DNA of 61,043 nt from a virus, in IMG/VR virus record IMGVR_UViG_3300025687_007811, positions 1 to 61,043 of that record. One strand, given 5' to 3'. Below the pieces are notes generated by a model that worked only from the letters and a program-made list of their open reading frames with translations, was not told where the DNA came from and made no database searches. Position 1 is the stretch's first letter. The number at the start of each line of letters is the position of its first letter. Shown piece after piece: positions 5,858 to 52,177 of this stretch. Position numbers and translations under genes: made by a program.

Positions 5858-5884
5858 TTGGCGTATATAATACTGAGACAGTAT
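5858..5884 (+). promoter_or_regulatory. Homing-endonuclease promoter with start-site hairpin
   Basis: A TTTTGGCGTATATAATAC block with TATAAT at 5866-5871, followed at once by the hairpin ATACTG-AGA-CAGTAT (5870-5884). The same layout recurs upstream of other endonuclease genes in this window. Confidence 0.6.
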
Positions 5885-5905
5885 ATTTTACACAAAGGGG
5901 TAACA

Positions 5906-6349
5906 ATGGCCAAAGAGACTAAATTTTGTAAAAAATGCAATCAAGAAAAACATGTTGACGATTTTCCCATACGGCAAGTAAGCAACTCAAGCGGAGGAAA
6001 AACTCGAAAAAGAAGACACGAGTGTCGATTATGCTACAATGAATACATCAAGAATTACTTAAAAGGAAATAGTAAGCATAAGGAACGAGTTGCAAACGGC
6101 AAACAAGCAAAAAGAAACAAGGTACGAGAAATAAAAGAAAAATCTGAATGTCAAATTTGCGGGTACAATAAAACACCAAATGCTTTACACTTTCATCATA
6201 TTGATCCTAAAGATAAAAAATTCAATATAGGATGGGCGTGTGGAGAGGGAAGAAAATGGTCTGATATTGAAAAAGAAATGAAAAAGTGTGTAATACTGTG
6301 TGCAAACTGTCATGCAGAAGTTGAAGATGGAACAACTAAGTTGGAATAA
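5906..6349 (+). CDS. HNH homing endonuclease
   Basis: 147 residues from ATG 5906, chosen for the AAAGGGG ribosome site at 5895-5900; the upstream in-frame ATG lies inside the promoter hairpin. An N-terminal zinc finger (CKKCNQEK...CRLC) is followed by an HNH domain: CQICGY, LHFHHIDPKDKKF and CANCHAE (metal and catalytic histidines plus two CxxC pairs). Stand-alone, between tRNA genes, A-rich like other endonuclease genes here. Likely a selfish gene targeting tRNA-array DNA. Confidence 0.85.
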   Translation: MAKETKFCKKCNQEKHVDDFPIRQVSNSSGGKTRKRRHECRLCYNEYIKNYLKGNSKHKERVANGKQAKRNKVREIKEKSECQICGYNKTPNALHFHHIDPKDKKFNIGWACGEGRKWSDIEKEMKKCVILCANCHAEVEDGTTKLE

Positions 6350-6838: not shown

Positions 6839-7555
6839 ATGCATACATACACCAAAGAAGAATTAGTAGAAGCTGTGCAACAAAGTCTGTCATATGCACA
6901 AGTATTTAAATATTTAAATCTCAGTGTTAGCGGATCTAGCTACAAATATTTAAAAGAAAACATTAAAAAATACAAGATAGACGTTTCTCATTTTAAAAAA
7001 GGAAATGCGTCTAAAAATAGATCTAACAAAAAAACTTGGCAACAAATATTGATAATAGAAACTAATGGAAGAAGAACAAAACACTCCATTCTAAAAAGAG
7101 GCTTAATTGAATACGGGAGAGAATACAAATGCGAAAGTTGTGGTAACGATGGTCAATGGAATGGTAAATCTATAACTTTACACATTGATCATATTAATCA
7201 AAACTGGCAAGACAATAGACCAAAAAATTTACGCTTTCTTTGTCCCAACTGTCATTCTCAAACTGACCAATGCAAGAAAAATAGGAAGCATAATACAGCC
7301 GGTGCCAAATATAAATGTATAAAATGTGAATCTAATGTTTGGAAAAAGGGTACATATTGTAGGCCGTGTACTATAGAACGGCAAAATAGAATTCAATGGC
7401 CTAACAAAGAAGAGTTGGAAAAGTTAGTATGGAAAAAACCCACATCGCAATTAGCTGAAGAATTTGGAGTCTCAGACAAAGCTGTAGAAAAGTGGTGTAA
7501 AAAATACAATATTAAGAAACCTACGAGGGGGTATTGGCAAAAACAACATAATTAA
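6839..7555 (+). CDS. HNH homing endonuclease with C-terminal helix-turn-helix
   Basis: 238 residues, strong ribosome site AAGGAGGGG at 6826-6834. N-terminal region (about 1-60) looks like a helix-turn-helix (YTKEELVEAVQQSLSYAQVF). The HNH core has CESCG, LHIDHINQNWQDNRPKNLRF and CPNCH. A zinc finger (CIKCESN...CRPC) and a second helix-turn-helix (TSQLAEEFGVSDKAVEKWCK) follow. Stop at 7553-7555, three bases before the next tRNA. Free-standing and A-rich, inserted between tRNA genes. Confidence 0.87.
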   Translation: MHTYTKEELVEAVQQSLSYAQVFKYLNLSVSGSSYKYLKENIKKYKIDVSHFKKGNASKNRSNKKTWQQILIIETNGRRTKHSILKRGLIEYGREYKCESCGNDGQWNGKSITLHIDHINQNWQDNRPKNLRFLCPNCHSQTDQCKKNRKHNTAGAKYKCIKCESNVWKKGTYCRPCTIERQNRIQWPNKEELEKLVWKKPTSQLAEEFGVSDKAVEKWCKKYNIKKPTRGYWQKQHN

Positions 7556-10906: not shown

Positions 10907-11016
10907 CAGTACGTGGCGAAAATAGGGGATGCGAATCCTCTCGGAAAACGCAGCGGCCTATTAGCCGCCGTCATAATGCAATAAAGACAATGCGGGTTCG
11001 AATCCCGTCGTACTGA
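10907..11016 (+). tRNA. tRNA-like RNA with a GNRA hairpin inserted in the D loop
   Basis: Perfect acceptor CAGTACG / CGTACTG, A73 then CTT, and a perfect T arm GCGGG-TTCGAAT-CCCGT. The D stem GCG / CGC encloses an extra 7-bp hairpin AGGGGAT-GCGA-ATCCTCT. The anticodon stem GCGGC / GCCGC closes a 6-base loop (CTATTA), and the variable region is long. 110 bases in total. It may not decode; amino acid not assigned. Confidence 0.6.
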
Positions 11017-11022
11017 CTTCAT

Positions 11023-11116: not shown

Positions 11117-11371
11117 ATGAAAAATTATCCAAAACGTGAGAAGAAAAAGAGGGGCGACAAATCAAAATACTGTTCTTTTACTGGTAGTGTCGCCACCAAC
11201 ATTAAAGAATCAACTCCCAAAATTAAAGATGTACTAAAGACTAAAGTTAAGTGCCCAGAATGCGGGAGGAAACTAATTCCCGATATATCATGCTGTACTG
11301 GGGGCAGAGAAGATGTTGATTGGGCATGTTGTGTCCATTTTAGTCTAAAGAGACATAGAAGAAAAAAATAA
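11117..11371 (+). CDS. Small zinc-ribbon-like protein
   Basis: 84 residues from ATG 11117 (GAGGA at 11103-11107 gives good spacing; an ATG at 11108 is also in frame). Very basic N-terminus (KRGDKSKYCS), then CPECGRKL and a CC...CC pair that could complete a zinc site, ending in a basic tail HFSLKRHRRKK. Possibly nucleic-acid binding. Its stop abuts the start of the tmRNA acceptor segment. Confidence 0.65.
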   Translation: MKNYPKREKKKRGDKSKYCSFTGSVATNIKESTPKIKDVLKTKVKCPECGRKLIPDISCCTGGREDVDWACCVHFSLKRHRRKK

Positions 11372-11713
11372 GCATGTAGACGTTATTGTCAAAGCAATGC
11401 AACACGGCGGTTCGACTCCGCCCGCTTCCACTTGAGATTAATATATGGGAGCGTAATGGTATCGATTGGTTGTCTAGGTAATAACTGCATGTACTGGTTT
11501 GTCGAAGGGCCAGTTAAAAAATCGACAAAATGTAAATGCAGAAAGAAATTTCGCTTTGGCTGTTTAAGTCACGGGGCTTCTAATTGCCTTGTTACCAAAA
11601 ATTAGCGTGACTGACTCTAGGATAGTTTCCATGTTATTCTTAGCATGGTGAGTGGGCACAGCGATATGGTGTCGTCGGATACATAACCGACTTCTAAGCT
11701 TTCAGCTTTAAAA
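11372..11713 (+). ncRNA. ssrA: Circularly permuted (two-piece type) tmRNA
   Basis: The acceptor segment comes first: T arm GGCGG-TTCGACT-CCGCC (11406-11422), CGCTTCC (11423-11429), A73. After a 16-base spacer the coding segment begins with GGGAGCG (11447-11453), the exact partner of CGCTTCC, then a GTAATGGTATCGA block typical of tmRNA. P2 can form between the two segments (GTTG/CAAC, TAATAAC/GTTATTG, TGCATG/CATGTA). A pseudoknot (ACTGG/CCAGT with TTTGTCGA/TCGACAAA) precedes the tag frame GCA...TAA at 11538-11567, encoding AERNFALAV. A later helix AGTCACG/CGTGACT fits P5. tmRNA rescues stalled ribosomes. The 3' end is approximate. Confidence 0.9.
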
Positions 11714-11729
11714 GGAAAGGATTTGGAAA

Positions 11730-12209
11730 ATGAAGAAACCATATAAACCACAAAAGCCAACAAAACCATCAAAAACAATAAAACAATATTCTAATATTGA
11801 TCTATACGAAGGTATAACCAAAAAAGAACTACTTAAACTAATAAAAGATCTTCCAGAAGACGCTATGTTAAGTCAACATATTTACGATGTTTATGGCGAT
11901 ACCGTCTGTGAAATATATTTTCAGGCATGTAAGATAGTAGAAAACCCGCGTTATGAATCAGAAATGACTAAGTACAAAATAAAGCTTAATCAGTACAATC
12001 AAAAAATGTCTAAGTACAAAGTAGAAATGTCGGCGTATGAGGATTACGAAGCTGAAAAAGAAAAGAAAAGGCTTGACAAGCTGAATCGGGATGCTAAAAT
12101 GAAGGAGTTAAAGGAACTAAAAAAGAAACTTGAGGTTCTGGAAAAAGAGTCACCGGAAGCTATTCGCAAGAAAATCCAAGAAATGGAGAAAGAAAGGGTT
12201 TTTAAGTAA
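11730..12209 (+). CDS. Coiled-coil hypothetical protein
   Basis: 159 residues, ribosome site AAAGGA before ATG 11730. The N-terminus is Pro/Lys-rich (KPYKPQKPTKPSK); a small folded segment follows (LLKLIKDLPEDAMLSQHIYD), then a long charged coiled coil (about 85-155, EAEKEKKRLDKLNRDAK). No family recognised. TAATG overlap with the next small frame. Confidence 0.65.
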   Translation: MKKPYKPQKPTKPSKTIKQYSNIDLYEGITKKELLKLIKDLPEDAMLSQHIYDVYGDTVCEIYFQACKIVENPRYESEMTKYKIKLNQYNQKMSKYKVEMSAYEDYEAEKEKKRLDKLNRDAKMKELKELKKKLEVLEKESPEAIRKKIQEMEKERVFK

Positions 12210-28208: not shown

Positions 28209-28617
28209 TTTTGCGGAAGAGCCATCGTTTAATCTCTACAAGGCTAAAGTCGAAAGAGTAATTGATGGTGACACTCTAGTATGCGATATTCAGTTTGATT
28301 GGGGTGTGACCCTTGAGGACAAGCATATTAGATGTTTGGGTTACGACGCTTGGGAGGCTAGTAAACGCCGCAGATCAAGAGATGTAACAGATGAAGAGGT
28401 TGAAAAGGGTCTTAAAGCGAAAAAAGAATTAGAAGAGTTGATTGAGAAATCAGAAGCTGTATATCTATCTCCCGGTGCAACGCCTTATGATCCATACGGT
28501 AGACCACTGGCTTATGTTTTTATAAAACAGGATGGAAAAATGATAGACTTGGCTTTATGGATGTCTAAAAATGGTCATTTAAGAGTTCCTCTGGGGAGTA
28601 CAAATGAAGATGAATAG
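28132..28617 (+). CDS. Exported staphylococcal-nuclease-like protein
   Basis: 161 residues. A signal peptide (about 1-28, ILVLIVLPALLNTSFA) precedes an SNase domain: VERVIDGDTLVCDI, IRCLGYDAWE, and DPYGRPLAYVFIKQDGKMID. RVIDGDT and the later DPYGR match the calcium and catalytic regions of thermonucleases. It would act outside the cytoplasm on DNA or RNA. It overlaps both neighbouring genes (77 and 8 bases). Confidence 0.85.
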   Translation: MNTKLLEILKKSILVLIVLPALLNTSFAEEPSFNLYKAKVERVIDGDTLVCDIQFDWGVTLEDKHIRCLGYDAWEASKRRRSRDVTDEEVEKGLKAKKELEELIEKSEAVYLSPGATPYDPYGRPLAYVFIKQDGKMIDLALWMSKNGHLRVPLGSTNEDE

Positions 28618-29851
28618 AAGACTGTTCCTTAAAAAAACCGCTGCTGGATGGTTATTGTCAACTGGTAGTCTTGCATTTGCAGATTATACAAAGACTAAAT
28701 ATTCGCCAAACGAAAATGCCATCATTTATCTTTTCTTGAGTGGTGGTCCGTCACACATTGAAACATTTAATCCAATCCCTTTAGCGGCTGTAGAACGCCG
28801 ATCAGTTACTGGTGTGGCACAAACTAATGTTGCGGGAATGCAGCTAGGCGGTCTGTTTAAAGAGCTTGGAAAAAGGGGTGACAGACTATCTGTATTTAGA
28901 GGATTTGGTCACAGGGACGCAAATCATGCGTCAGCAACGCATTGGTTAATGACAGGAGAACCGGGTTTCGCAAACAACGGTCAAAAATGGCCGAGTTATG
29001 GAAGTGTTGTGTCTGGTCATTATGGAACCAACGTAGAATCAAATGGAATGCCAACATATGTTAAGGTGAATCCAATCCAGCATGACGACGCTTCATGGAT
29101 GGGTTCTAAATATATGGGTTATGATGCAAATGCGGAAGGTAGGGATGATCTTAAATTGAAGGTAGAACTGGAACGTTTTGCAAGAAGAAAAGAAATAGTA
29201 TCATCCATCGAACAGAATTCCGTAATTAAGGGGCAGCTATTTGCCCGCGAATGGACAGACCTGCGGGAGCAGGCAATCAACGTCATTACGGGTCAGGCGT
29301 CGAAGGCATTTAAAATCGAAGAGGACAGAGAGTATCAAAATTATAAAGACAACCGTCTCGGAACTGACATGTTGACGGCAATTCGATTAATTGAATCCGG
29401 CTGCAAATTCGTAACATTGAATTATGGCGGCTGGGATATGCATAACAACATAAAGACCGGCTTAGAATCACGACAAACCGTTTTAGATTCCTATCTCGGA
29501 AAGTTAATGGATTCAATAAAAGAAAGAGGTCTATATGATAACGTAATGTTGGTAATCACCGGGGAATTCGGAAGAACTCCGAAGATTAATGCTAATGCCG
29601 GAAGAGATCATTGGGCTGGATTATGCCCACTTGCTATTTCTTGCGGTGCTTATGAAATGGGAAGGGTAGTAGGAGACTCAGACGAGTATGCTACGGAGGC
29701 TATTGATGGGAAGTGTGGACCGGAGGATTTAAGATATACTGTGTTTTCACACTTGGGTATTGATAAGAACTCTATGTGGCTTTCTATAGAGGGACGACCA
29801 ATGCATTTAAATAAAGAGTCTTCTAAAAATATTCTTACGGAGTTATCATGA
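28610..29851 (+). CDS. DUF1501 family protein with Tat signal
   Basis: 413 residues from ATG 28610 (an ATG two codons earlier is also possible). NRRLFLKKTAAGWLL is a twin-arginine signal. YLFLSGGPSHIETFNPI, NHASATHWLMTGEPG and GEFGRTPKINANAGRDHWAG match DUF1501, an alkaline-phosphatase/sulfatase-like fold widespread in planctomycete and Bacteroidetes genomes. Activity not established. Likely acquired from a host and exported folded through the Tat system. Confidence 0.85.
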   Translation: MNRRLFLKKTAAGWLLSTGSLAFADYTKTKYSPNENAIIYLFLSGGPSHIETFNPIPLAAVERRSVTGVAQTNVAGMQLGGLFKELGKRGDRLSVFRGFGHRDANHASATHWLMTGEPGFANNGQKWPSYGSVVSGHYGTNVESNGMPTYVKVNPIQHDDASWMGSKYMGYDANAEGRDDLKLKVELERFARRKEIVSSIEQNSVIKGQLFAREWTDLREQAINVITGQASKAFKIEEDREYQNYKDNRLGTDMLTAIRLIESGCKFVTLNYGGWDMHNNIKTGLESRQTVLDSYLGKLMDSIKERGLYDNVMLVITGEFGRTPKINANAGRDHWAGLCPLAISCGAYEMGRVVGDSDEYATEAIDGKCGPEDLRYTVFSHLGIDKNSMWLSIEGRPMHLNKESSKNILTELS

Positions 29852-30794: not shown

Positions 30795-31808
30795 TTACTC
30801 GTTTATCATTTCAGATATCCATTTGTAAGTGACTTCCATTCCATCCCTTAGTTTTCTTGTTGGTCTCCATCCTATCATTGATTCTATGAAATCGTTTTGA
30901 GATTTTCGTCCCATTACCCCGAGTGGACCGTCAATATGTTTAAGCTCTATTTGTTTACCAGCAATGTCAGCAACCATATAAGCCAAATCATTAATTGATA
31001 TCATTTCATCAGAGCCTATGTTTACGACTTCAGTACAGTCAGACTGCATAAGTCTCTCAACGCCCTCTAAGCACTCATCAATAAAAAGAAAAGATCTGGT
31101 TTGTTTTCCGGTTCCCCATATCTCAACGACATTTGATTCATCACTGGTCATTGCAACCTTTCTGCATATTGCTGCCGGGGATTTCTCTTTGCCGTTATTC
31201 CATGATCCTTCTGGACCAAAAACATTATGAAACCTAGCAATTCTAACATCAAGTCCATAATTCCTCATGTATGCGTGGTACATTCTTTCACTAAATAGTT
31301 TTTCCCATCCGTATTCAGAATCTGGATTTGCTGGATAGGCAGAAGACTCTTCACAGTTCGGATTATCCGGGTCTAGCTGATTATGCTCAGGGTAAATGCA
31401 GGCCGATGAAGAATAAAACACTCTAGTATCACGGGAGTATTTTGTTAGTGAGTCAAGCGTGTTTAAATTGATACACGCGGAGTTATGCATAACGTCAGCA
31501 TCGTGCTCTCCGCTGAAAATGTATCCGGCACCGCCCATGTCTGCCGCAAGCTGATAAAGCCTGTAAGGTCTAAACATGTTGATAAGGTATTCGACATTTT
31601 TAGGATCTCTTAGGTCCATCAAGTAGAATCTGTCGAAATGACCTTCTAAGCGACCATATTCAGTATCTGTAATTCTAGAACTTCCATAGTCCCAGTATTC
31701 ATTTAGTTTGATGTCAACGCCGACAACATAATAGCCATCCTTTACTAATTTCTTGCAAAGATGACCTCCAATAAAACCACCCGCACCAAAAACTAAAACG
31801 TTTTTCAT
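30795..31808 (-). CDS. GDP-mannose 3,5-epimerase-like NAD-dependent epimerase
   Basis: 337 residues. FGAGGFIGGHL is the NAD Rossmann loop; AADMGGAGYIF, SSACIYPEHN, YGWEKLFSERMY (YxxxK) and RFHNVFGPEGSW with GKEKSPAA match GDP-mannose 3,5-epimerase, which converts GDP-mannose to GDP-L-galactose. Last gene of the minus-strand glycan operon. It would supply a sugar donor to transferases in the same operon, including a GT11-like enzyme. Specificity is by family resemblance. Confidence 0.85.
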   Translation of the reverse strand: MKNVLVFGAGGFIGGHLCKKLVKDGYYVVGVDIKLNEYWDYGSSRITDTEYGRLEGHFDRFYLMDLRDPKNVEYLINMFRPYRLYQLAADMGGAGYIFSGEHDADVMHNSACINLNTLDSLTKYSRDTRVFYSSSACIYPEHNQLDPDNPNCEESSAYPANPDSEYGWEKLFSERMYHAYMRNYGLDVRIARFHNVFGPEGSWNNGKEKSPAAICRKVAMTSDESNVVEIWGTGKQTRSFLFIDECLEGVERLMQSDCTEVVNIGSDEMISINDLAYMVADIAGKQIELKHIDGPLGVMGRKSQNDFIESMIGWRPTRKLRDGMEVTYKWISEMINE

Positions 31809-31809
31809 A

Positions 31810-32829
31810 TTACTTCTCCAATTGATCCATAAAGATTTTCATAAATTCATCATCAGTTTTATTTAAAAGAAATCTATTGTCTTGAGCCGCTTTTAATAGC
31901 TTATTATAGTTTAGCCCGCTCAAAATAGAGGACAGGTCAGTTCCATCAGGAACTTCAACATATTCTTTAGGCATTATCATGCTTTTCTCCCCACTTGTTT
32001 CAGTCCAGATTAAAATAGCCCCCAAAGCCATTATATCAAAGGTTCTCCAGCTTATTCTACCATGTCCGGTCGGACATAGCCCAATTTTACAATCATATAA
32101 AGCTGATAGCATATCAATATGCTTGACAGGAGAATGATTTAGGGCGGATACATCTCCAAAGATATCAGACTGAAATTCTAAGCTTAGGTTTTTTTCAGAA
32201 AAAACAAGACCTCCATAAAAACTGGTTTTAGATTTTAACAATGATAACAACCAATCTATACGTTGATTATACATATAATGCAAAATTTTATCACCGTATA
32301 TGTCAAATTTTTTGTCTGGATTTGAAAGACAGGAAATACCATCTACTGAGTTGTATACTCCACTTTTTATAGGTTCATAAAGCGATCTAAACGTCGGAGA
32401 ACAAACCAATAAAGGAGAAAAGGAAGACTGCTTAAAAAGAATATCCTGATTAGCTATATTTCTCAAGTAAGAATAAACAGGTAATGGAAACCCTATATTT
32501 TTAATCGAATCATTTCTAGTATTTTTATCAACCCAGCTCATTTTTGCATAGGCGACTACCTTGTCTTTTAATTCATAATACGCAACATCTGGATCGAAGT
32601 GGGTTGGCTGATCCTGACAGTCATAGAAGAAAATCATATCAGAATTGATTTTATCAAAAACCTCAAAAGAAACACTTGGATCAACAAATGTTAAATCAAA
32701 TTTTGAATCAGGAATATCGTCATAGGAATTACACCAAAAAACAGCATTGTTTAGATTTGAAAATCCACTAACTATTCTACTTTTAGATGACTTATCCCTT
32801 CCTTCAATTATTAATATCCTCATTCCCAT
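31810..32829 (-). CDS. Glycosyltransferase-like protein
   Basis: 339 residues (a start at 32823 is equally likely). GT-B style C-terminal block: LYDCKIGLCPTGHGRISWRT, then FDIMALGAILIWTE, as in exostosin/GT1-type transferases where a donor-sugar site sits near a conserved E/R. N-terminal part resembles a Rossmann acceptor domain. Operonic on the minus strand. Donor and acceptor unknown. Confidence 0.65.
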   Translation of the reverse strand: MGMRILIIEGRDKSSKSRIVSGFSNLNNAVFWCNSYDDIPDSKFDLTFVDPSVSFEVFDKINSDMIFFYDCQDQPTHFDPDVAYYELKDKVVAYAKMSWVDKNTRNDSIKNIGFPLPVYSYLRNIANQDILFKQSSFSPLLVCSPTFRSLYEPIKSGVYNSVDGISCLSNPDKKFDIYGDKILHYMYNQRIDWLLSLLKSKTSFYGGLVFSEKNLSLEFQSDIFGDVSALNHSPVKHIDMLSALYDCKIGLCPTGHGRISWRTFDIMALGAILIWTETSGEKSMIMPKEYVEVPDGTDLSSILSGLNYNKLLKAAQDNRFLLNKTDDEFMKIFMDQLEK

Positions 32830-33665
32830 TTAAACCATCCTCTCATTGGTATATTGCTTAGATTCTTATTTTTGTCGCCCTTCCACTGTCTCCAAGGACC
32901 GTAAACGCCGACTTTATCAGCACCACTTAAAACAGATGCCCACCAGCCCAACGTTCCATGCTCGAAAAGGATGTTTCTAAAAGATCTTATCTTGTTAAAA
33001 TCTTCTAGTATAGAACCTTTTTCAATAACTGGCGAAAATTCAGAAAACATATCAACAAAAGAATTGAAGTAGTCTACAGAGAGATTAATATCAACCCTCT
33101 CAGAATCTGGAACATTGTTGTGAAACTTCATAGACCTTAACTCGCTACTTGATACGTGTCCCCACTTTGGCATATCTGTAACTATATGAAGTCTATCAAA
33201 ATTAAATTGCCTTATTGCTTGAAGGTATTGTTTTGGACCCGGTTTTGTGAAAAACTCGTTTCTCATAAAAAGACGATCACCAGTTCTAAAATGAACAACT
33301 AAATCATTATCTTTTCTCGGCTTTACTTCTGGAAACCAAGACTTTATTAAGTCAAGATTCGGGTAATAATAGCGGTAATCTTCAAAATATCCTTCCAATA
33401 AAAGATCATCATTTCCATTATACATTTGTGCTTTATCGTAGTTACCATCGCCAACATGTATAAAATTTTTCTTAGGAAGTTTATAATCGCAAGAAATCCC
33501 AAGTTCTTTAAGAGAATCGATAGCATAATAATTTTTAGAATACGGAATAACAATAAGTTCTTCAGAATTCAATCTTTTATGAAGAAGTTTTGCGGCAACA
33601 TACTGAAAAATATTATTACCAAACCCGTTTGTTAGTTTAACATAAGTTTTCATAGTCATACCCAA
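32820..33665 (-). CDS. GT11-like fucosyl/galactosyltransferase
   Basis: 281 residues (the likely start is four codons inside, at 33653). LTNGFGNNIFQYVAAKLL matches the GT11 (alpha-1,2-fucosyltransferase) opening motif, VVHFRTGDR the donor-binding H-x-R motif, and GTLGWWASVLSGADKVGVYG the C-terminal motif. It would use GDP-fucose or, given the epimerase in the operon, GDP-L-galactose. The donor is inferred. Confidence 0.75.
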   Translation of the reverse strand: MGMTMKTYVKLTNGFGNNIFQYVAAKLLHKRLNSEELIVIPYSKNYYAIDSLKELGISCDYKLPKKNFIHVGDGNYDKAQMYNGNDDLLLEGYFEDYRYYYPNLDLIKSWFPEVKPRKDNDLVVHFRTGDRLFMRNEFFTKPGPKQYLQAIRQFNFDRLHIVTDMPKWGHVSSSELRSMKFHNNVPDSERVDINLSVDYFNSFVDMFSEFSPVIEKGSILEDFNKIRSFRNILFEHGTLGWWASVLSGADKVGVYGPWRQWKGDKNKNLSNIPMRGWFKWE

Positions 33666-34377
33666 AAGTTTCTATATCTTGCTTACATCTTTCTGCAACT
33701 ATGTCTATTAGCTCTTGATTGTAATAATTTGAGTAATGTATTTTTATAGGATCATGCCTTACAACGTCTCCACTATAATGACCAGAATGATTCAGATGTG
33801 GTAGATTCGCATCAATACCTATTTTTTCACAAATAAATTTAAACTCTTCATCAAGACGTTCAAATCTACCAACATGATCCACCATGATTTTGCCGGTTTT
33901 ATGATCTATTATATGCTCTATCTGATTTCTAATATGCCATTTATCATGCTGATACTGATGAATTGGAGCATTTTTATAACACCAATCCATCTGCTTAACA
34001 AAATCATCAAAAGAAACTCTACCATCCTCTCCGGTCCATCCCCTTGATTTCCATCCTTTTTTTGGATAGGTTTTTTCTTTTCTTGTTAACCATTTCCAGT
34101 TTGAGACATATCTGTCCCAAGGGTTCCTAACTATTGCAACCTTCCATAGTGAATTAAAAAGGTTTTCACCCAGAACGTTTTTAGTATTTTCCGTTCTAGA
34201 TAGTTTAAAATTTACAACACTCAGAAACTCATTATAAAATAATGGAGATCTTCTATAGATATCTGAATTTTCAGTTAGTACATTGTTTGGAAACTTATCT
34301 AGAACACTTTTTAAACTAGTTCCTCCGGTTTTTGGAATATGAATGTATAAACCAATTACTTCAGATTTAGCAGCCAT
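33637..34377 (-). CDS. Carbohydrate sulfotransferase
   Basis: 246 residues. LYIHIPKTGGTSLKSVL carries the 5'-phosphosulfate-binding loop and VAIVRNPWDRYVSNWKWL the 3'-phosphate-binding segment of the Sulfotransfer_2 family, which moves sulfate from PAPS to sugar hydroxyls. It suggests that the glycan made by this operon is sulfated. PAPS would come from the host. Confidence 0.87.
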   Translation of the reverse strand: MAAKSEVIGLYIHIPKTGGTSLKSVLDKFPNNVLTENSDIYRRSPLFYNEFLSVVNFKLSRTENTKNVLGENLFNSLWKVAIVRNPWDRYVSNWKWLTRKEKTYPKKGWKSRGWTGEDGRVSFDDFVKQMDWCYKNAPIHQYQHDKWHIRNQIEHIIDHKTGKIMVDHVGRFERLDEEFKFICEKIGIDANLPHLNHSGHYSGDVVRHDPIKIHYSNYYNQELIDIVAERCKQDIETFGYDYENLC

Positions 34378-35024
34378 AAATCATTCCCATCATTAATAAT
34401 TGGTTTAAAACCAAAAGCACTTAAAAAATTAATAGTCTCATTAATATCCATATATCCATCATATTCTTTTTCACCATACTCTACTATTACTAGTTTAACC
34501 TCATACAAATGATCACCACACCCCGTTAAGACCTCTTTTTCAGCACCTTGAACATCTATCCATAGTAGATCAACATAGTTGATTTTATTTTTTTCTACGA
34601 AATTAGCATAAGTATCTGTTTTCACAGTAATCTTATCTTTAATGTGCTTATAACCTTTTTTAAGAGATGAGGAACCAGAGTTATTTAGCTCTAAATTAAT
34701 ATAGTCATCCCGAGATATCCAATCGTATTTTTCAGGAACGTCAGTCTGCGACTGATAGCTTTGATAAAAATCAGCACATCCAACCCTATCCGACAAAGCT
34801 ACTTCGAACAGTTTTATCCTATCATCGCAAACGTACTTCTTAAATACAGAAATGTTTCTTGGGTCTGGTTCAAAGCAGAAAATACTAGATTCAGGAAAAG
34901 CCTCTGCAAATCTTAAAGAGTCTTCTCCATAATGAGCACCTATCTCAACTATAACCGGATCTTTTTTTGCTATTATTTCCTTTAGCTTATTGAACTTGTC
35001 GGTGTATTTTTTCATGTAGCTCAT
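34356..35024 (-). CDS. FkbM-family methyltransferase
   Basis: 222 residues from ATG 35024, which overlaps the preceding stop (ATGA). VIVEIGAHYGEDSLRFAEAF is the SAM-binding loop; IFCFEPDPRN, LLWIDVQGAEKEVLTG and VKLVIVEYGE are FkbM landmarks. Such enzymes O-methylate sugars or polyketides; here a sugar hydroxyl of the surface glycan is likely. Overlaps the sulfotransferase start. Confidence 0.85.
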   Translation of the reverse strand: MSYMKKYTDKFNKLKEIIAKKDPVIVEIGAHYGEDSLRFAEAFPESSIFCFEPDPRNISVFKKYVCDDRIKLFEVALSDRVGCADFYQSYQSQTDVPEKYDWISRDDYINLELNNSGSSSLKKGYKHIKDKITVKTDTYANFVEKNKINYVDLLWIDVQGAEKEVLTGCGDHLYEVKLVIVEYGEKEYDGYMDINETINFLSAFGFKPIINDGNDLWLLNLK

Positions 35025-35959
35025 AAATATTCTTTCATTACTTCGCAAACCTTCTTGGCCCTGCCAACCCAACAGTGCTCATTCGCCTGATTATCAATAA
35101 AATATCGAGACATCCTATTAAGTTTTTCATTATCACTTAATAGGTCCGTAATTTTTTCCTCAAAATCAGACAGGTTGTAGGAAAACTCAAGACAGTTCAC
35201 GTCTGGAATTAATATTTCCTTAAACTCTTCTGGAATTGTTGGACAGACAGGAATTGTTGAAGAGCCAAGTATCTCAAAACACCTAGCCGATATGTCACCA
35301 AACGGTGCCGGTGTACAAACCCATAATTTAGAATTAGCCATAGTTTTCGCATACAATAAATAATCATCAATAAAAGCCTTTGATGCGTCATCGCTGGCAT
35401 TCCAAAAAACATTGCAATCCATACGTGATAGTTTATCTCCTATTTTAACCCTGATATTTTCTGTCTCAAAAGCACCTTCCTTGTATAGTTTGTTTTGATG
35501 TAGGGCACCGCTAAACCCTATGTCAAAATCTCTTTGGGCTTTTCTTGAATAAAAAAATTCTGGATAATAGCCGTAGGTTAAAAGTTCTGTTCTTTTCCCT
35601 ATGATCTCGCCGTATTTTTTATACTGAGGTACAGTAGCAAATACGATGTCAACATCGTTGTTTCTACAGAACTCAAACTTTTTCTCTAAATTGTTTTGAG
35701 GTTTAAATAAGATGGCGGCGACTGGAACATCTAAGTTCTTGATGTGAATGAAGTAGTCAGAACCAAGCCACCCAAACCCAAAAATAACAAAATCGGGAAC
35801 AAAACCCGTTTCATTTATAACGGCTTTCAGGTCGTTAAATGGCTTATTGTATACAAAAACATTCGCGACTTCTTTTAAGCCATCACAAAGACCGTTGTAA
35901 TATTTATATTTATTCGATGTAGGTGAATAAACTATTGGATCAGCATACAAGATATTCAT
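35021..35959 (-). CDS. CgeB-like glycosyltransferase
   Basis: 312 residues. N-terminal DUF3880-like Rossmann part (ILYADPIVYSPTSNKYKYYN), then FDIGFSGALHQNKLYKEG and TPAPFGDISARCFEILGSST, ending in a typical GT1 C-terminal helix (FEEKITDLLSDNEKLNRMSR), as in spore-maturation CgeB glycosyltransferases. Acceptor unknown. Middle of the glycan operon. Confidence 0.75.
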   Translation of the reverse strand: MNILYADPIVYSPTSNKYKYYNGLCDGLKEVANVFVYNKPFNDLKAVINETGFVPDFVIFGFGWLGSDYFIHIKNLDVPVAAILFKPQNNLEKKFEFCRNNDVDIVFATVPQYKKYGEIIGKRTELLTYGYYPEFFYSRKAQRDFDIGFSGALHQNKLYKEGAFETENIRVKIGDKLSRMDCNVFWNASDDASKAFIDDYLLYAKTMANSKLWVCTPAPFGDISARCFEILGSSTIPVCPTIPEEFKEILIPDVNCLEFSYNLSDFEEKITDLLSDNEKLNRMSRYFIDNQANEHCWVGRAKKVCEVMKEYL

Positions 35960-36543
35960 AAATTAAAACTTCTATAAAATGGACCTATTTGCCCTCTTAA
36001 ATATATGGTTTCTTCAAATATGTCAGAAAACGCCTTAAAAACTTCTTCATCTAAGTCTGTAAATCGCGATACCCTTTCTTTCCAAGAATTCTCAATATTC
36101 AGCCGTGAATCAATTTCCAAAAAATTAAGCAAATAATTATTACATTTTAAAATATCTTCATAAGAAACTAAACAAATATTGTTTGAATTATTTGATGCTG
36201 AAATCCATTTTTTGAACAAATTATTAATTCCAAAATCCAGCCTATGCTCTAGAATATATTCTATAGAGACATATTTAGGAATTTTATCATATGGTTGATT
36301 TAAATGTTTTAGATGATTTTTTATCCAATTGGGAGATTTTTTATTTCTTTTACAAAACGAAATAACGGCATTTATTGGATTAGAATGAATAAAAACTTGC
36401 TTATCGATATCTGTATTATTTATATCTAAAAATACATGAGGATTATGATCTTTATCAAAAACGTCAATATTTGTATTGCATTTGAAAAAATTAGTTATAA
36501 ATTTTAAACCGCTTCCACCATAAGAATAAAATCTAACTTTCAT
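35956..36543 (-). CDS. Sulfotransferase-like protein, degenerate
   Basis: 195 residues. YSYGGSGLKFITNFF resembles the phosphosulfate loop, and VFIHSNPINAVISFCKRN the R/S-containing 3'-phosphate segment (with N in place of R), so a sulfotransferase fold is likely but some key residues differ. Short compared with family members. Overlaps its neighbours by 4 bases. Function uncertain. Confidence 0.55.
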   Translation of the reverse strand: MKVRFYSYGGSGLKFITNFFKCNTNIDVFDKDHNPHVFLDINNTDIDKQVFIHSNPINAVISFCKRNKKSPNWIKNHLKHLNQPYDKIPKYVSIEYILEHRLDFGINNLFKKWISASNNSNNICLVSYEDILKCNNYLLNFLEIDSRLNIENSWKERVSRFTDLDEEVFKAFSDIFEETIYLRGQIGPFYRSFNL

Positions 36544-37403
36544 TTTAATACTCCCGGTGCAATATCTTGAATATGCCTAAACTTACCTTGGTCATGGTAT
36601 CCATCAGAAACTACCGGAATCTCAGTAATTTCGGACTGAATGATGTGTGCAAAAATACTAATGATTTCATTATCACCCCATCTATACTTATAGATACCGC
36701 CACTCTTATTTACCTCATTAATCCACAATTTCCAAATATTGGTATCAAACACGGATGTATCTATAACGTATGTATCGCACCAATCAAGAAAATGAAAAAG
36801 GTATGGGTCATTTTTAAGTAGAACTTCTTGAAGCTGGCCCGAAGAAACATCTATCTTGTTGCTTTCAACGAACCTTTTAGTAAAATCAAAAAGACCAATC
36901 CTAGTGTCTAAATGGCCTTGATGTGGGTGTCCGTTCTTTAATCTTTTCCCGACAAAAAAGGCACCGATTTTATTACCGCTATCTTTTAGGATTTGTATCG
37001 GATCAAAATCAACAATCTTATTATATCCAGACTCATCATCATGAGTGATAATGTAATCGTAAATTTCTAGATTTGTGCCGGAATAGCCATAAAGATTTGA
37101 GTTAAAATTACACATGTGTAAATAGCCAAGTCGGGATTTTGGAAAACTAGACCTAACATAGCTAAGATAGTGTTTATGGTAGTATAAATCTGTCTCTTCT
37201 ATATGCTCTGGTATTTTATAATCAACTTTTTTGAATTCAACATTTTGATTATAGGTTTCTATCTTCACATTATCGTATATGTCATCAAAATAAAACACCT
37301 TAACTGGATAATCGTATTTATGATTGAAATGGTCCCACAAAGATTTTAAGCTAAGCTCTATACACTTTGTTCTTGAGGAAATGTATACTATGCATGTTTT
37401 CAT
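36540..37403 (-). CDS. GT15-like glycosyltransferase
   Basis: 287 residues. LGYLHMCNFNSNLYGYSGTN and IYDYIITHDDES, followed by WINEVNKSGGIYKYRWGDNE, mirror the GT15 family (yeast Kre2/Ktr alpha-1,2-mannosyltransferases), including the catalytic-site ERWGD-like motif. GT15 is mainly eukaryotic; phage copies are uncommon in my knowledge. Would use GDP-mannose, a precursor also used by the epimerase in this operon. Confidence 0.65.
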   Translation of the reverse strand: MKTCIVYISSRTKCIELSLKSLWDHFNHKYDYPVKVFYFDDIYDNVKIETYNQNVEFKKVDYKIPEHIEETDLYYHKHYLSYVRSSFPKSRLGYLHMCNFNSNLYGYSGTNLEIYDYIITHDDESGYNKIVDFDPIQILKDSGNKIGAFFVGKRLKNGHPHQGHLDTRIGLFDFTKRFVESNKIDVSSGQLQEVLLKNDPYLFHFLDWCDTYVIDTSVFDTNIWKLWINEVNKSGGIYKYRWGDNEIISIFAHIIQSEITEIPVVSDGYHDQGKFRHIQDIAPGVLK

Positions 37404-38215
37404 AATTCACCAAGTGCTATTTTTAAACTTTTAATACCATCGTCCAAGGTAGGTAATCTACCGCTGTTTTTAGTTTTAACAAAATTTATAAAATCATTTA
37501 ACTGTAATGCGATCTTATCTATTTTCTGATTAAGGTCTAAATTAAAACAGTCATCATTTTTAAGCTTGCCGTAAGCAAATCTCTTTGGTTTTACATGATC
37601 GTAAGAAAAGTAAGACGAGTCTATGTTAACAATATGATTACTGAAAACAAGATCTATATTACAAGTGGAGTAATTTCGTCCAAAACCAACATTGTATGAT
37701 CTAATTTCAAGAGGGTCTTCTTCTAAAACAAATCTTGCCAAATCAATGTCATGAACGGAAAGGTCTAAATTGACATCAACTCCATGATTTGAGTTTGGCG
37801 TTTTGCCAAGTCTTTGAAATCTTATAAACTTACAGTCTTTTAGTCTTTCAAGATCTTTGTTGTATCTTTCACAGTATCCAACAATTATATTGGAATATGA
37901 GGATGAGGGTATGTCATTGATTTCATTCAGTGATGAAACAACGGGCTTCTCAACAAGCATTGGAATATTGAAATGAGAATAATATCTTATTTGATTAATA
38001 TGATCTTTAGGAGGGGTGCATATTATTACAAAATCAGCATCATCGCAGTCTTTATTTACCGATATTTTGTTTGAGTATTTGTTATAAACCGGAGACTCTA
38101 ATGCGTTTTTGGGGTTTATATCTTCAATAAAAACGTGTGAAATCAAGCTATTAATGCAACACTTTTCTGCATAAATCATTCCCATTTTTCCGCCACCAAT
38201 AATTTTAGCTATCAT
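37400..38215 (-). CDS. Gfo/Idh/MocA-family sugar oxidoreductase
   Basis: 271 residues. IIGGGKMGMIYAEK is the NAD loop; FVIICTPPKDH and MLVEKPVVSS are the conserved CTP and EKP motifs. The C-terminal substrate domain is shorter than usual. With the DegT aminotransferase, overlapping by 11 bases, it forms the classic dehydrogenase/aminotransferase pair that makes amino sugars on a nucleotide carrier. Confidence 0.82.
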   Translation of the reverse strand: MIAKIIGGGKMGMIYAEKCCINSLISHVFIEDINPKNALESPVYNKYSNKISVNKDCDDADFVIICTPPKDHINQIRYYSHFNIPMLVEKPVVSSLNEINDIPSSSYSNIIVGYCERYNKDLERLKDCKFIRFQRLGKTPNSNHGVDVNLDLSVHDIDLARFVLEEDPLEIRSYNVGFGRNYSTCNIDLVFSNHIVNIDSSYFSYDHVKPKRFAYGKLKNDDCFNLDLNQKIDKIALQLNDFINFVKTKNSGRLPTLDDGIKSLKIALGEL

Positions 38216-39005
38216 TGTATGACCCCTCTTCTATTCTTCTTGCAACTTCTTCTGCGATTGGGCAATTTCCAGTAATACCCCTTTTTATGTATGCTGGCTG
38301 ATCATAAACAACCTTTGGATAGTGTCCGTTTTGAGGTCCATAAATTCCTGTTTCTGCATTTATTCCAACCGAATGTAGTTTAATTCTTTCCAAAGCTAAT
38401 AAACATAATGGTTCCGCCAATCTAAAATTGAAACCAACGTGTTCGTGATTGTATTTCCCATCTTGTCCCTGATCACATATTGATCGTATTTTTTTCGCAT
38501 CAAGTCTTGAGTGTTTTGGAATACATATCATGCCACCCTCAAAAGTTGATACGTTCTTGGTCTTATAAAATGAAAAAGTTCCGCAGTCTCCAATAGTACC
38601 GCATCGACCAACACCAAAAGCCTGTGCTGTATCTTCTATTACGGGGATATTGTATTTGAGAGATATTCTCATTATTTCATCCATGTTGCAACTTCTGCCG
38701 TATAAGTGAACCGGAATGATCGCCCTTGTTCTTTTGGTTATCTTTTTTTCTATCTCTGCCGGATCAATCAGCAATGATTTAGGGTCTATATCAGCAAATA
38801 CTGGTTTTCCGCCGGAAATAACAATAGCATTAGATGTTGCGATGAAAGTAAGTGGCGTTGTAATAACTTCATCGCCGGGTTCCAAATCCATAGACCACAT
38901 AGCCGCTATAAGTGCTGATGTTCCACTGTTTACAGCTATACAATCTTGAAGATCGAATCTGTCTATTATGTATTTTTCGAATATGTCTCTAACTATTTGT
39001 GGCAT
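38205..39005 (-). CDS. DegT/DnrJ/EryC1-family sugar aminotransferase, short
   Basis: 266 residues. AVNSGTSALIAAMWSMDLEP, EDTAQAFG and FSFYKTKNVSTFEGGMI (PLP lysine in YKTKN) define the family. Usual length is about 370; the N-terminal residues before the substrate loop and part of the C-terminus are missing, so it may be truncated or a compact form. It would aminate a keto-sugar made by the adjacent oxidoreductase. Confidence 0.82.
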   Translation of the reverse strand: MPQIVRDIFEKYIIDRFDLQDCIAVNSGTSALIAAMWSMDLEPGDEVITTPLTFIATSNAIVISGGKPVFADIDPKSLLIDPAEIEKKITKRTRAIIPVHLYGRSCNMDEIMRISLKYNIPVIEDTAQAFGVGRCGTIGDCGTFSFYKTKNVSTFEGGMICIPKHSRLDAKKIRSICDQGQDGKYNHEHVGFNFRLAEPLCLLALERIKLHSVGINAETGIYGPQNGHYPKVVYDQPAYIKRGITGNCPIAEEVARRIEEGSYNDS

Positions 39006-39894
39006 AATTTGTCCTAAAAATAAAATCTAGATAAAAATCTGATACTATATTCATATCATTTGTTGATTCGTATTTGTTTGATGTCTTTTTTGAAAAATCC
39101 AACTCGGGTGGTGAGTAAAGACGTAGCGGCTTAAAATCCCAGTCTTCTTCTGTAATTATAGTCGCTCCAAGCCCGGCCACTTCGAAAGTTCCGCCAGAAG
39201 ACGAGCATATAATATGACATCCAGCACCGCGAGCATCACAAACAACATTCGGACAATGATCAAGCCAAGCTAAGTGAATGAAATACTTTGACATTTTGTA
39301 TATCGAATAAAGTGTTTCTTGCGTGACATTACCAATATAACGTATTTTTTTATCCTTAGTTTTTTTCTCATATTCTCCGGCAATAACCAGTATATCATTG
39401 CTTGAAGAGTGTTCCTGAAAAAATCTTATATTCTCATTTAACCTCTTATGAGGTCTCCAAGACGATGCACAACACCATATATCTCCATTACACTCTAGTC
39501 TAGAACCTAAATCTGCTGTTATACTTTCAGCGGCTGCAATAGCTTCTAAATCAGCACCATTATGAATAACACAAGCGTTTGGATGCTCTGAAAAATATCT
39601 AGTAACCAATTCTTTGTTAAAATTTGATTGAAAAATTACTCCATGTGCGTTTCTGTATGTTTGCAATATAGGGTGGTTTTGTGCTACCCAGTTTTGATCG
39701 GTATTGAAGTATATGCCATCCAGTCTTTGATAAATTTCACCAGTACCTGATGATGAAAATATGAAAGATAGTTTCTTTCTAGATGACTGATCGATGGTAA
39801 CGCCTTTTCTCAGCATGTATTTCAACAATTTGTGACCAAAGGAGTTGGGTCCAGAATTAGATGCTGGAGAATAGTTTTCAATACAAAGGTTCAT
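38989..39894 (-). CDS. GT4-like glycosyltransferase
   Basis: 301 residues. GVIFQSNFNKELVTRYF, VIHNGADLEAI, WRPHKRLNENIRFF and HLAWLDHCPNVVCDARGAGC give the GT-B layout of GT4 transferases (donor site E replaced by D in the last block). Overlaps neighbours by 17 bases each side. Acceptor unknown. Confidence 0.75.
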   Translation of the reverse strand: MNLCIENYSPASNSGPNSFGHKLLKYMLRKGVTIDQSSRKKLSFIFSSSGTGEIYQRLDGIYFNTDQNWVAQNHPILQTYRNAHGVIFQSNFNKELVTRYFSEHPNACVIHNGADLEAIAAAESITADLGSRLECNGDIWCCASSWRPHKRLNENIRFFQEHSSSNDILVIAGEYEKKTKDKKIRYIGNVTQETLYSIYKMSKYFIHLAWLDHCPNVVCDARGAGCHIICSSSGGTFEVAGLGATIITEEDWDFKPLRLYSPPELDFSKKTSNKYESTNDMNIVSDFYLDFIFRTNYATNS

Positions 39895-40717
39895 ATGGCT
39901 TCCTACTTCTAATAATGTTGGCTAAATTGGTTTGCTCAACCGCATGTGTTTTATCTACATTATCCCCAAGTTTATTATACACATACAGATTCTTATCAAT
40001 ATACTTAGACCTTGATCCAGATATCTCAAGAACAGGCAGCATTATAGCTTGATCATAAGCGTATTTAAAATACGATCCATGAACCATTAGGTCAAACAAA
40101 GCAATTTCTTTCCAGATGTGGAACTTAAACGTTCTTAAATGAGACGCTCTCCATCTGTCTTGCCTGAAAGAGTTATTCTTAATTACATCCTGCGGATACT
40201 CAGAAGGTTCCACCCCCATGCGACGGTAGAGACCGTTTGCAAAATATGAATAACTTCCATACGTAGAAACACAGTCGTAATTACTGTATACATGATCAAG
40301 ATGATTTAAAACATTTGGACTTGAAAACCAATCATCACCATCAACCAGAATAACAACATCTTCATCATTGATATCACTATTTTGAATTGCATTTACTATA
40401 TTTTCTAGAGCGTATTTTCTTTCTTGGTTTGTTATGACTGAACAGTTTTCAAAATTACCCTCTTCTAAAACAGTATTAAGCATTAAGTTACTTGAATCGC
40501 AAGAGCAGTCATCTATAAAAATTACTTTAAAATTAGAGTATTTTTGGTTTAATGACACATAGGCATTGATGGCGATAAAATTCTCAATATTCCTAAACGG
40601 AGTAACTATTACAAATCTGGTATTTTCATTACTACTTTCATCAATATCAGGAAGATTTACATTCCATATATGAAATTGATTACTTAAAAAGTTTTTTACT
40701 CTATCACTTAAATTCAT
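39878..40717 (-). CDS. GT2-family glycosyltransferase
   Basis: 279 residues. FVIVTPFRNIENFIAINAYV, IFIDDCSCDSSN and VVILVDGDDWFSSPNVLNHL are the GT-A nucleotide-sugar and DxD metal motifs of family 2. No membrane segments, so a soluble transferase adding single sugars. Early in the minus-strand operon. Confidence 0.87.
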   Translation of the reverse strand: MNLSDRVKNFLSNQFHIWNVNLPDIDESSNENTRFVIVTPFRNIENFIAINAYVSLNQKYSNFKVIFIDDCSCDSSNLMLNTVLEEGNFENCSVITNQERKYALENIVNAIQNSDINDEDVVILVDGDDWFSSPNVLNHLDHVYSNYDCVSTYGSYSYFANGLYRRMGVEPSEYPQDVIKNNSFRQDRWRASHLRTFKFHIWKEIALFDLMVHGSYFKYAYDQAIMLPVLEISGSRSKYIDKNLYVYNKLGDNVDKTHAVEQTNLANIIRSRKPYEPLY

Positions 40718-41576
40718 TGTTTACTTCCTTCCAAAAAAAATCAGGTCTTCCCTTTAAATAATCCTCGGTATTTGAATTAAACCAATCTTCTGATGCGTGC
40801 TGAACATTACTGTTAATAACTAAATTTAGTCCTAAAAGTTTAGCTTCTATTGTGCATCTTGGACATGTGTCTTCTATTATTGGAAGAAAAACCATACCGG
40901 TATATTGCGAAAGTCTTTTTATATGATCATAGTATGGCTCAATTGGCAGAATGTCAAAATCTAAATTGTTTAATCTACAAAAATCAACCGCCTGATTAAG
41001 TCCTTTAGCCATACTGTGCCACCCCCCATAACCCTGAAGAATGGCATACTTATTATTCTTTGGTTCAGTTCTCAAGCGAGAAAATAAACTAAAATCATCC
41101 TTCATGAAACAGGAGCTTAATATTCTGGTTTTATCAATTTTTAATTCAATGTGCTGCAAAAATACATCTCTCTGTTTCTCTGACATAAAAAAGATTAAAG
41201 CGTCTTCTGCTATTTTGGTATAAATTTTTCTTATTATCGGAATAGCTGGACATCTGCATTGCTCTTTATTCCCTAATACAAAATGTGGAATAGTTCCTCT
41301 ATACGGACAATAATTATAGTCAAACTCTATTTTGACAATATTCTTCAGACTTAACAGGTTTTTTATCTCTTGGGAATTTAAATCAAACTGGTACAGGTGG
41401 GTTATATTGCCCAGTATCCAAACACTATCTCTGTACCTGTCTATTAAATCTGATGTAAGATCTGAACATCTAAGCATTAGCACATTTTCTAAATTAGGTT
41501 CCATTATAGCCTTATTGGTTAAACTCGTTCCACCAATCTCTATATTGGAATCATCAACAAAAACATAATCCATCAT
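40704..41576 (-). CDS. Glycosyltransferase-like protein, first gene of the glycan operon
   Basis: 290 residues. NNKYAILQGYGGWHSMAKGL and MVFLPIIEDTCPRCTIEAKL, then LGLNLVINSNVQHASEDWF, fit a GT4-like donor domain (E-x7-E replaced by D/E pattern). The N-terminal half lacks a clear motif. Start at 41576 or one codon later. Its promoter must lie in 41577-42100. Confidence 0.6.
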   Translation of the reverse strand: MMDYVFVDDSNIEIGGTSLTNKAIMEPNLENVLMLRCSDLTSDLIDRYRDSVWILGNITHLYQFDLNSQEIKNLLSLKNIVKIEFDYNYCPYRGTIPHFVLGNKEQCRCPAIPIIRKIYTKIAEDALIFFMSEKQRDVFLQHIELKIDKTRILSSCFMKDDFSLFSRLRTEPKNNKYAILQGYGGWHSMAKGLNQAVDFCRLNNLDFDILPIEPYYDHIKRLSQYTGMVFLPIIEDTCPRCTIEAKLLGLNLVINSNVQHASEDWFNSNTEDYLKGRPDFFWKEVNNEFK

Positions 41577-49984: not shown

Positions 49985-52177
49985 ATGTCAACAAAGGGTT
50001 TAGAAAACTACACATTTACGGCTAAATATGCAAGATACTCACAAGACAAGAAAAGAAGAGAAACATGGAGAGAGTCATGCGATAGAGTCATGAACATGCA
50101 TCTTGAGTTTTACAAAGATTACGGAATAGATGATGACATTAGGTGGGCATTTGATCGTGTTAAAAAGAAGTTAGTATTAGGCTCTCAGCGTGCTTTACAG
50201 TACGGCGGTGATCCTATTTTACGTAAGCACGAGAGAATTTATAATTGTAGTTATTTGCATATCGATAAATACGAATCATTTTCACAAACAATGTTTCTAT
50301 TGCTGTGTGGCTGCGGTGTAGGATTTAGCGTACAAAAACATCATATCGAAAAACTTCCCAATTTAATCACATCAAAAGACGGTCAAGTAAAATTTGTAAT
50401 CGACGACTCTATTGAGGGCTGGGCCGATGCAATTGGTGTGTTGGTAGCCAGCTATCTAGATATTCCATCTGGACAGAAGTGGTCTGAATATTCTGGAAAG
50501 CATGTCCAGTTCGACTATACCAAAATTAGAGACAAGGGTGAACCATTATCTCATGGGTGCGGTAAAGCACCCGGTCCAGAACCTCTCAAAAAAGCTATTG
50601 CAAGCATTAGGTCGTTACTAGATAGAGCACTTGAGCAATCAGAATTTGCTTCCAAGAAGCTCAGACCTATCGTCGCTTATGATATCATTATGCATTCAGC
50701 CGATGCCGTAATTTCTGGTGGTCACAGAAGAAGTGCAACAATTGCAATCTTCTCTCCAGACGATGAAGAAATGATGAATGCAAAAACTGGTAATTGGTTT
50801 TCTGAGAATCCGCAACGTGGAAGGTCTAATAACTCGGCCTTGCTGGTTAGATCAGAAACATCTAAAGAGGCATTCTCAAAACTACTTCAACGAACTAAAG
50901 AATTCGGTGAGCCGGGCTTCATATGGGCTGATCATAGAGATGTTGGTTTCAATCCTTGCTGTGAAATTTCGTTCATGCCACATGATGAAATCACCGGAGA
51001 GACTGGTGTGGGCTTCTGTAATCTATGTGAAATTAATGGCAAAAAGATTACTAACGAAGAAATCTTCGAAGAAGCTTGTCGAGCAGCAGCAATTATTGGA
51101 ACATTGCAGGCTGGATACACCAATTTTCCATATCTTGGTGAAGCCAGTCAAAACATTGCCAAAAAGGAAGCATTGCTGGGATGTTCTATTACTGGCATGA
51201 TGGAAAACCCCGAAATCTTATTTGATCCAAAGCTTCAAAAACGTATGGCAAAACTAATCAAAACAGTGAATGCCGAAATTGCAGAAAAGATAAATATTAA
51301 TCCAACGGCTAGAGCGACTGCAATCAAACCCGCTGGTACGACAAGCTGCATTCTTGGCACATCTAGTGGCGTTCACCCACATCACGCTAAACGCTATATT
51401 CGTCGCGTACAAGCCAACAAGATGGAGAACGTGTATCAATTCTTCAAGAGGCACAACCCTCACGCATGTGAGGCTTCTGTGTGGTCCACAAACAACACGG
51501 ACGATGTTATATCATTCTGTGTTGAAGTTCCGGCAGGATCAAAAACTAAAAACCAAATAAATGCAACTGAATTGTTGGAATTAGTGAAATTGACCCAGCA
51601 AAACTGGGTAGAATATGGAACCAACGCAGAGCGATCCATTCATCCGTCTCTAAGACATAATGTATCTAATACAATTAATGTCAAGCAAGACGAGTGGGAA
51701 GATGTAGAAAACTTTATCTACAAAAACAGAAACTACTTTGCCGGTATTTCGCTTCTATCTGTAACAGGAGATAAAGATTATCCACAGGCTCCATTTAGTG
51801 CGATTTATCTTCCTCATGAAATGGTTTCATACTATGGTGATTGTGCTATGTTTGTTAGCGGTTTAATCGAAGAGGCTATGAAATTATTCGAAGACAACCT
51901 GTGGGCTGCTTGCGATGCGTTATTAGGAATGAATTTCGTTAAGGGTTCAGCTAAGCATGAATGGATTGATAGATGTAAAAGGTTTGCAAAGAAATATAAC
52001 GGTGGAGACGTTAAGAAACTCACCTACTGCATGAAAGATGTCTACAACTACAAACTTTGGTTAGATCTACAGCGTGATTGGCAAGATGTTGATTATACTG
52101 AGCTATTTGAAGAAGAAGATAATACCAAGATACAGGAGACAATCTCTTGTTCTGGTGGTGCTTGCGAAATTATTTAA
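49985..52177 (+). CDS. nrdJ: Adenosylcobalamin-dependent ribonucleoside-triphosphate reductase (class II, monomeric)
   Basis: 730 residues from ATG 49985 (GGAG upstream). NCSYLHI (first active-site Cys), LLCGCGVGFSVQ, FNPCCEISFMP (thiyl Cys and catalytic Glu), TTSCILGTSSGVHPHH, and the C-terminal CSGGACEII thiol pair are present. Reduces NTPs to dNTPs with B12, independent of oxygen. Own promoter. Fits with the dCMP deaminase and dUTPase in the same genome. Confidence 0.93.
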   Translation: MSTKGLENYTFTAKYARYSQDKKRRETWRESCDRVMNMHLEFYKDYGIDDDIRWAFDRVKKKLVLGSQRALQYGGDPILRKHERIYNCSYLHIDKYESFSQTMFLLLCGCGVGFSVQKHHIEKLPNLITSKDGQVKFVIDDSIEGWADAIGVLVASYLDIPSGQKWSEYSGKHVQFDYTKIRDKGEPLSHGCGKAPGPEPLKKAIASIRSLLDRALEQSEFASKKLRPIVAYDIIMHSADAVISGGHRRSATIAIFSPDDEEMMNAKTGNWFSENPQRGRSNNSALLVRSETSKEAFSKLLQRTKEFGEPGFIWADHRDVGFNPCCEISFMPHDEITGETGVGFCNLCEINGKKITNEEIFEEACRAAAIIGTLQAGYTNFPYLGEASQNIAKKEALLGCSITGMMENPEILFDPKLQKRMAKLIKTVNAEIAEKININPTARATAIKPAGTTSCILGTSSGVHPHHAKRYIRRVQANKMENVYQFFKRHNPHACEASVWSTNNTDDVISFCVEVPAGSKTKNQINATELLELVKLTQQNWVEYGTNAERSIHPSLRHNVSNTINVKQDEWEDVENFIYKNRNYFAGISLLSVTGDKDYPQAPFSAIYLPHEMVSYYGDCAMFVSGLIEEAMKLFEDNLWAACDALLGMNFVKGSAKHEWIDRCKRFAKKYNGGDVKKLTYCMKDVYNYKLWLDLQRDWQDVDYTELFEEEDNTKIQETISCSGGACEII

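Follow-up and report, generated by a model that had tools for sequence, protein, structure and literature searches.

Positions 11372-11611 of the window (the whole 61,043-nt stretch of viral DNA analyzed here) contain a circularly permuted (two-piece) tmRNA gene on the plus strand, identified by both ARAGORN and Rfam and located in the tRNA array of the phage. Judging from sequence comparisons, this tmRNA is outside the three known bacterial permuted lineages and belongs to a phage family with both one-piece and permuted gene orders. Because both orders occur in this family, the permutation most likely arose in that phage gene pool. We think it rather probable that the full reading holds, i.e., that a large phage here encodes a functional two-piece tmRNA, a member of a mixed-order phage family whose permutation has that origin.

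Anatomy of the tmRNA gene

ARAGORN reported a permuted tmRNA at 11338-11658 with the tag AERNFALAV, and the Rfam model RF04321 (tmRNA_permuted) matched 11372-11567 over its full length (model positions 1-213) at 75.6 bits (E = 1e-12 for the whole window), above its gathering score of 47 bits. The preliminary description had claimed that the phage encodes a permuted tmRNA and, with it, a tag of its own, and had named covariance models and a permuted-tmRNA finder as the check; both programs, as well as the intact pairing, bear this out. Every element it had listed (the T arm, CGCTTCC, A73, a 16-base gap, GGGAGCG, a P2-like helix, a pseudoknot, and AERNFALAV-stop) was present in the pairing check. 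Its span of 11372-11713 is correct at the left end, where the RF04321 match starts, but too long at the right end, since recognizable tmRNA structure stops at ~11611 and the match to RF01850 ends at 11631.

In gene order, the acceptor piece begins with the first strands of P2 (11372-11402), which pair with 11466-11492 in three segments, 11372-11378/11486-11492 (7 bp), 11383-11390/11477-11484 (8 bp), and 11394-11402/11466-11473 (8 bp with a bulge), and all 23 pairs are standard. The T stem and loop (GGCGG-TTCGACT-CCGCC, 11406-11422), recovered by RF04321 and the pairing check, form 5/5 pairs between 11406-11410 and 11418-11422. The 3' acceptor strand CGCTTCC (11423-11429) with the discriminator A73 (11430) lies upstream of the 5' acceptor strand GGGAGCG (11447-11453); the two form 7/7 pairs, with U70 opposite G3, and the intervening 16-nt spacer (11431-11446) is expected to be excised. 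CCA is not encoded in the gene. The coding piece opens with this 5' strand and a D-loop-like region (11447-11468), which were also recovered by RF04321 and the pairing check.

Pseudoknot PK1 (11493-11529) has stems of 5 bp (11493-11497/11510-11514) and 8 bp (11498-11505/11522-11529). A PK1-like double stem appeared in 0/5000 dinucleotide shuffles of its stretch, and the PK1 pairs are kept in 421/429 cells over 33 distinct relatives, with many two-sided changes, compared with 15-40% in slid controls. The resume codon GCA, preceded by UAAAU, lies 3' of PK1 and starts the tag frame AERNFALAV, which ARAGORN also called and which ends with the stop TAA (11538-11567); the tag keeps the FALA core and ends in Val instead of Ala. 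A post-tag pseudoknot (GTCACG/CGTGAC, GGGC/GCCT, and CTAATT/AATTAG; 11568-11611) was recognized by pairing, and covariation in its inner stem is seen in permuted tmRNAs of other phages. A promoter and terminator scan gave no more signal than was obtained in shuffles. Elsewhere in the window, at 10907-11017, a tRNA-Pro(cgg)-like gene with a 37-nt anticodon-arm insertion was seen only with introns allowed in ARAGORN; it could be a disrupted tRNA.

Phage relatives and the mixture of gene orders

The class II ribonucleotide reductase (RNR) of the window matched 80 IMG/VR loci at ~60% identity, many of them syntenic with its RNR-PhoH-DnaB block. Among the RNR-defined relatives, a permuted tmRNA was found in 4/40 records and a standard one-piece tmRNA above the cut-off in 9/29. 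A pattern for the window-type PK1 retrieved 58 loci with one-piece and permuted genes side by side, a family that is biased toward look-alikes by this way of gathering. Both gene orders occur in phages having a common RNR or DnaB block. The one-piece gene L195 (in G025) is nearly letter-for-letter identical to that of the window in PK1 and P2 (GTAATAACTGCATGTACTGGTT and CATGTAGACGTTRTT), and the short tags are alike across the forms (AERNFALAV, ADESLALAA, and AEETLALAA in permuted genes; AEKQFALAA and AEPSLALAA in one-piece genes). L195 (258 nt) and L209 (282 nt, in G103) are far shorter than most one-piece relatives (~340 nt or more), and they may represent either a stage before permutation or a return from it. 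The permuted genes L190, L247, L180, L213, and their relatives have unusual T loops (GGCAGTA, TGCAATT) with intact T and acceptor stems. The nearest match to the window tmRNA in phage records, LR756511.1 (31 bases), turned out to be merely a tRNA-Met.

The DnaB helicase of the window has 48-64% identity to those of 23 other phages of the set, which carry both tmRNA forms. In the DnaB tree (471 columns; 15 permuted and 9 one-piece phages), the forms interleave, and forcing either into one clade costs ~243 log units (p-AU = 2e-112 and 6e-65); the starred branches require at least three switches or exchanges. The nearest kin of the window in this tree (G105, G109, G114, G121, and G139) are all permuted, and L212 in G105 is also the nearest tmRNA. 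In maximum-likelihood trees of the tmRNA itself, the one-piece and permuted members of the family share one side of the starred branch with Escherichia coli ssrA, and most other permuted phage tmRNAs lie on the opposite side, with support of 98/93 (two long rows misplaced), 97/99 (one misplaced), and 100/100 (subset). A 24-row subset tree groups the permuted forms, without support (41/41).

A single permutation in the phage family, followed by spread through exchange between phages rather than by repeated permutations and reversions, is a variant of our preferred explanation and not exclusive of it, and we regard its probability as falling slightly short of even. Exchange of genes between phages, the tmRNA included, can mimic repeated switches. 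The RNR and DnaB trees conflict for some of the same phages (G051 and G056), indicating that gene exchange is part of this history; the tmRNA may have been permuted once and then traded, or more often. The RNR tree, in which the window sits on a long branch, serves as a side check only. AU tests on the short tmRNA alignment (~170-230 columns) did not reject the permuted members of the family as one clade (p = 0.26 and 0.24). Against a single event, the tmRNA tree needs a minimum of three changes of form, and, in PK1, the permuted alleles do not all resemble the same one-piece allele (the window and L195; L213 and L209).

Within the family, the spacer between the acceptor strands measures 5-603 nt. 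The longest, that of G114 (a DnaB sister of the window), contains a complete reading frame with a ribosome-binding-site-like AGGAG in front of it (11470-12073 of locus L310, ~51470-52073 of G114, minus strand). The encoded protein is similar to HNH/endonuclease VII-type phage endonucleases (phrog_3322, E = 3.8e-23), with no Pfam match above the Pfam cut-off, and the stop codon of the gene falls within the start of the coding piece, GGGGGTGA. G114 had been considered as a wholly split tmRNA, which was rejected when the acceptor piece was found 603 nt upstream. Two HNH genes are also present in the tRNA array of the window (5858-6349 and 6839-7555). Our guess is that endonucleases of this type invade permuted genes, or even contribute to their formation.

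Several other features of these phages were noted. A PhoH-like protein of the window (53331-55028) is split by an intein-like LAGLIDADG region, and a run of ~13 genes on the minus strand (30795-41576) resembles surface-sugar synthesis (epimerase, aminotransferase, glycosyltransferases, and sulfotransferase). A DUF1501 protein (28604-29851) is shared with several relatives, is present in two tandem copies in G051 (L263, 8778-11230), and had no match in phage records. Peptide patterns for the RNA ligase, the 537-2087 protein, and the DUF1501 protein retrieved no relatives, and for the last of these the search included a bacterial-genome scan.

Relation to known permuted tmRNAs

Among bacteria, three main clades are known to have permuted tmRNA (PMC11915505). 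The alpha_tmRNA model (RF01849) had no match in the window at E = 10, the cyano_tmRNA model (RF01851) matched partially at 39.8 bits (cut-off 70), and the beta_tmRNA model (RF01850) reached 80.6 bits (cut-off 84). The last score suggested a beta-type tmRNA, a reading that was dropped after all genes had been un-permuted and profiles built from family one-piece, beta-type permuted, and cyano-type permuted tmRNAs: the un-permuted window scored 127.9, 43.9, and 3.6 bits, respectively. The 12 other permuted sequences of the family show a like preference (13/13 with the window). In a single pattern scan of bacterial genomes, no Val-ending tag was found together with the post-tag element, and plasmids gave no match.

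It had also been claimed that there was no clear precedent in phages, which is wrong. Two-piece forms account for 53 of 133 unique tmRNA structures in phages, mostly from marine or aquatic settings, and one is carried by phage Melnitz (PMC9004378). When we scanned IMG/VR with a generic pattern for permuted tmRNAs, we obtained 87 stretches, most of them confirmed by ARAGORN, with 39 distinct stem and tag combinations including the window. The pattern fixed U70, C71, C72, A73, G1, G2, and G7 and left G3 free; the acceptor stem is fully paired in 39/39, with two-sided changes at 4-69, 5-68, and 6-67, and G3-U70 is present in 39/39. In Synechococcus phages S-CAM1 and S-CAM3, an unannotated permuted tmRNA lies beneath features labeled hypothetical protein or tRNA-Arg.

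In phages, the type of permuted tmRNA usually tracks the host lineage (PMC9004378). This speaks for ordinary capture from a host lineage that has the permuted form, the route suggested for tmRNAs of the SAR11 type and of cyanophages. Such capture would also be consistent with the RF01850 score close to its cut-off and with AU tests that leave a single origin of all permuted tmRNAs admissible (p = 0.184 and 0.235), and the donor is possibly a permuted host lineage not yet recognized. Nevertheless, we consider capture unlikely: the beta- and cyano-type profiles fall 84 and 124 bits short of the phage one-piece profile, the alpha model is without a match, and one-piece tmRNAs from phages sharing the helicase and RNR have matching PK1 and P2 elements.

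The kinship with the one-piece profile, together with mixed forms requiring at least three switches or exchanges, makes an origin of the permutation inside phages, a place of origin that we infer from sequence, likely but not proven. Given the short tmRNA alignment and AU tests that do not reject one permuted clade, an independent origin is favored, again without being proven. Whether this is a further independent origin of split tmRNA, in a phage lineage with several switches between the one-piece and permuted forms and with a mobile endonuclease gene in one spacer, appears to us evenly balanced.

Proposed function and comparison with known systems

We infer the processing, charging, and function of this tmRNA from established two-piece tmRNA biology. 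Host tRNA-processing enzymes (RNase P and 3' processing) would probably cut after A73 (11430) and before G1 (11447), so that the 16-nt spacer would be lost, and CCA would be added. The two pieces would be held together by the acceptor stem and P2. Alanyl-tRNA synthetase would charge the molecule through G3-U70, and host SmpB and EF-Tu would bring it to stalled ribosomes, where AERNFALAV would be added to the unfinished protein; SmpB was not found in the 61-kb window, itself a linear fragment. A decayed or decoy tmRNA, able to bind SmpB but not to tag, like the tag-less form known from mycobacteriophage DS6A (PMC4131195), might be read into the final Val, but it is very improbable with the reading frame, stop, resume context, G3-U70, A73, and all helices intact and with Ala-Val-ending tags in three other distinct phage permuted tmRNAs from the IMG/VR scan.

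A phage with its own rescue RNA and a Val-ending tag would have a means, open to testing, of changing how rescued proteins are degraded. From ssrA variants, a tag ending in Val may slow degradation by ClpXP. While two-piece tmRNAs of phages as such are already known, the kinship with one-piece phage tmRNAs and the mixed gene orders in one phage lineage seem not to have been described in the literature searched. In the bacterial clades with permuted tmRNA, each change to this form is ancient and fixed; the phage group, with one-piece and permuted tmRNAs among helicase-sharing relatives, provides more recent cases. Because the forms coexist among these relatives, the steps (duplication, spacer growth, endonuclease entry, and return to one piece) would be directly comparable, and an independent phage origin with repeated switches, if true, would offer a natural series of RNA-gene permutation.

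Among known systems, the beta_tmRNA family (RF01850) shares the permuted order, the tRNA-like part, and the post-tag GGGGC...GCCTTGTTACC element with the window tmRNA, but differs in the PK1 region, and the window scores below its cut-off. The one-piece tmRNAs of related phages (e.g., L195 in G025 and L198 in G031) are alike in P2, PK1, tag type, post-tag pseudoknot, and phage backbone, but differ in gene order and are mostly longer (~340 nt) with further stems, L195 being just 258 nt. The permuted tmRNAs of Melnitz and of cyanophages (PMC9004378; S-CAM1 and S-CAM3) are likewise phage-encoded, with the identical gene order, a spacer between the acceptor strands, and a tag frame, and use of host SmpB is presumed in both cases. 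While those tmRNAs are of the alpha and cyano types by the published tree (PMC9004378), that of the window has a PK1 and P2 of the one-piece type and a 9-residue tag.
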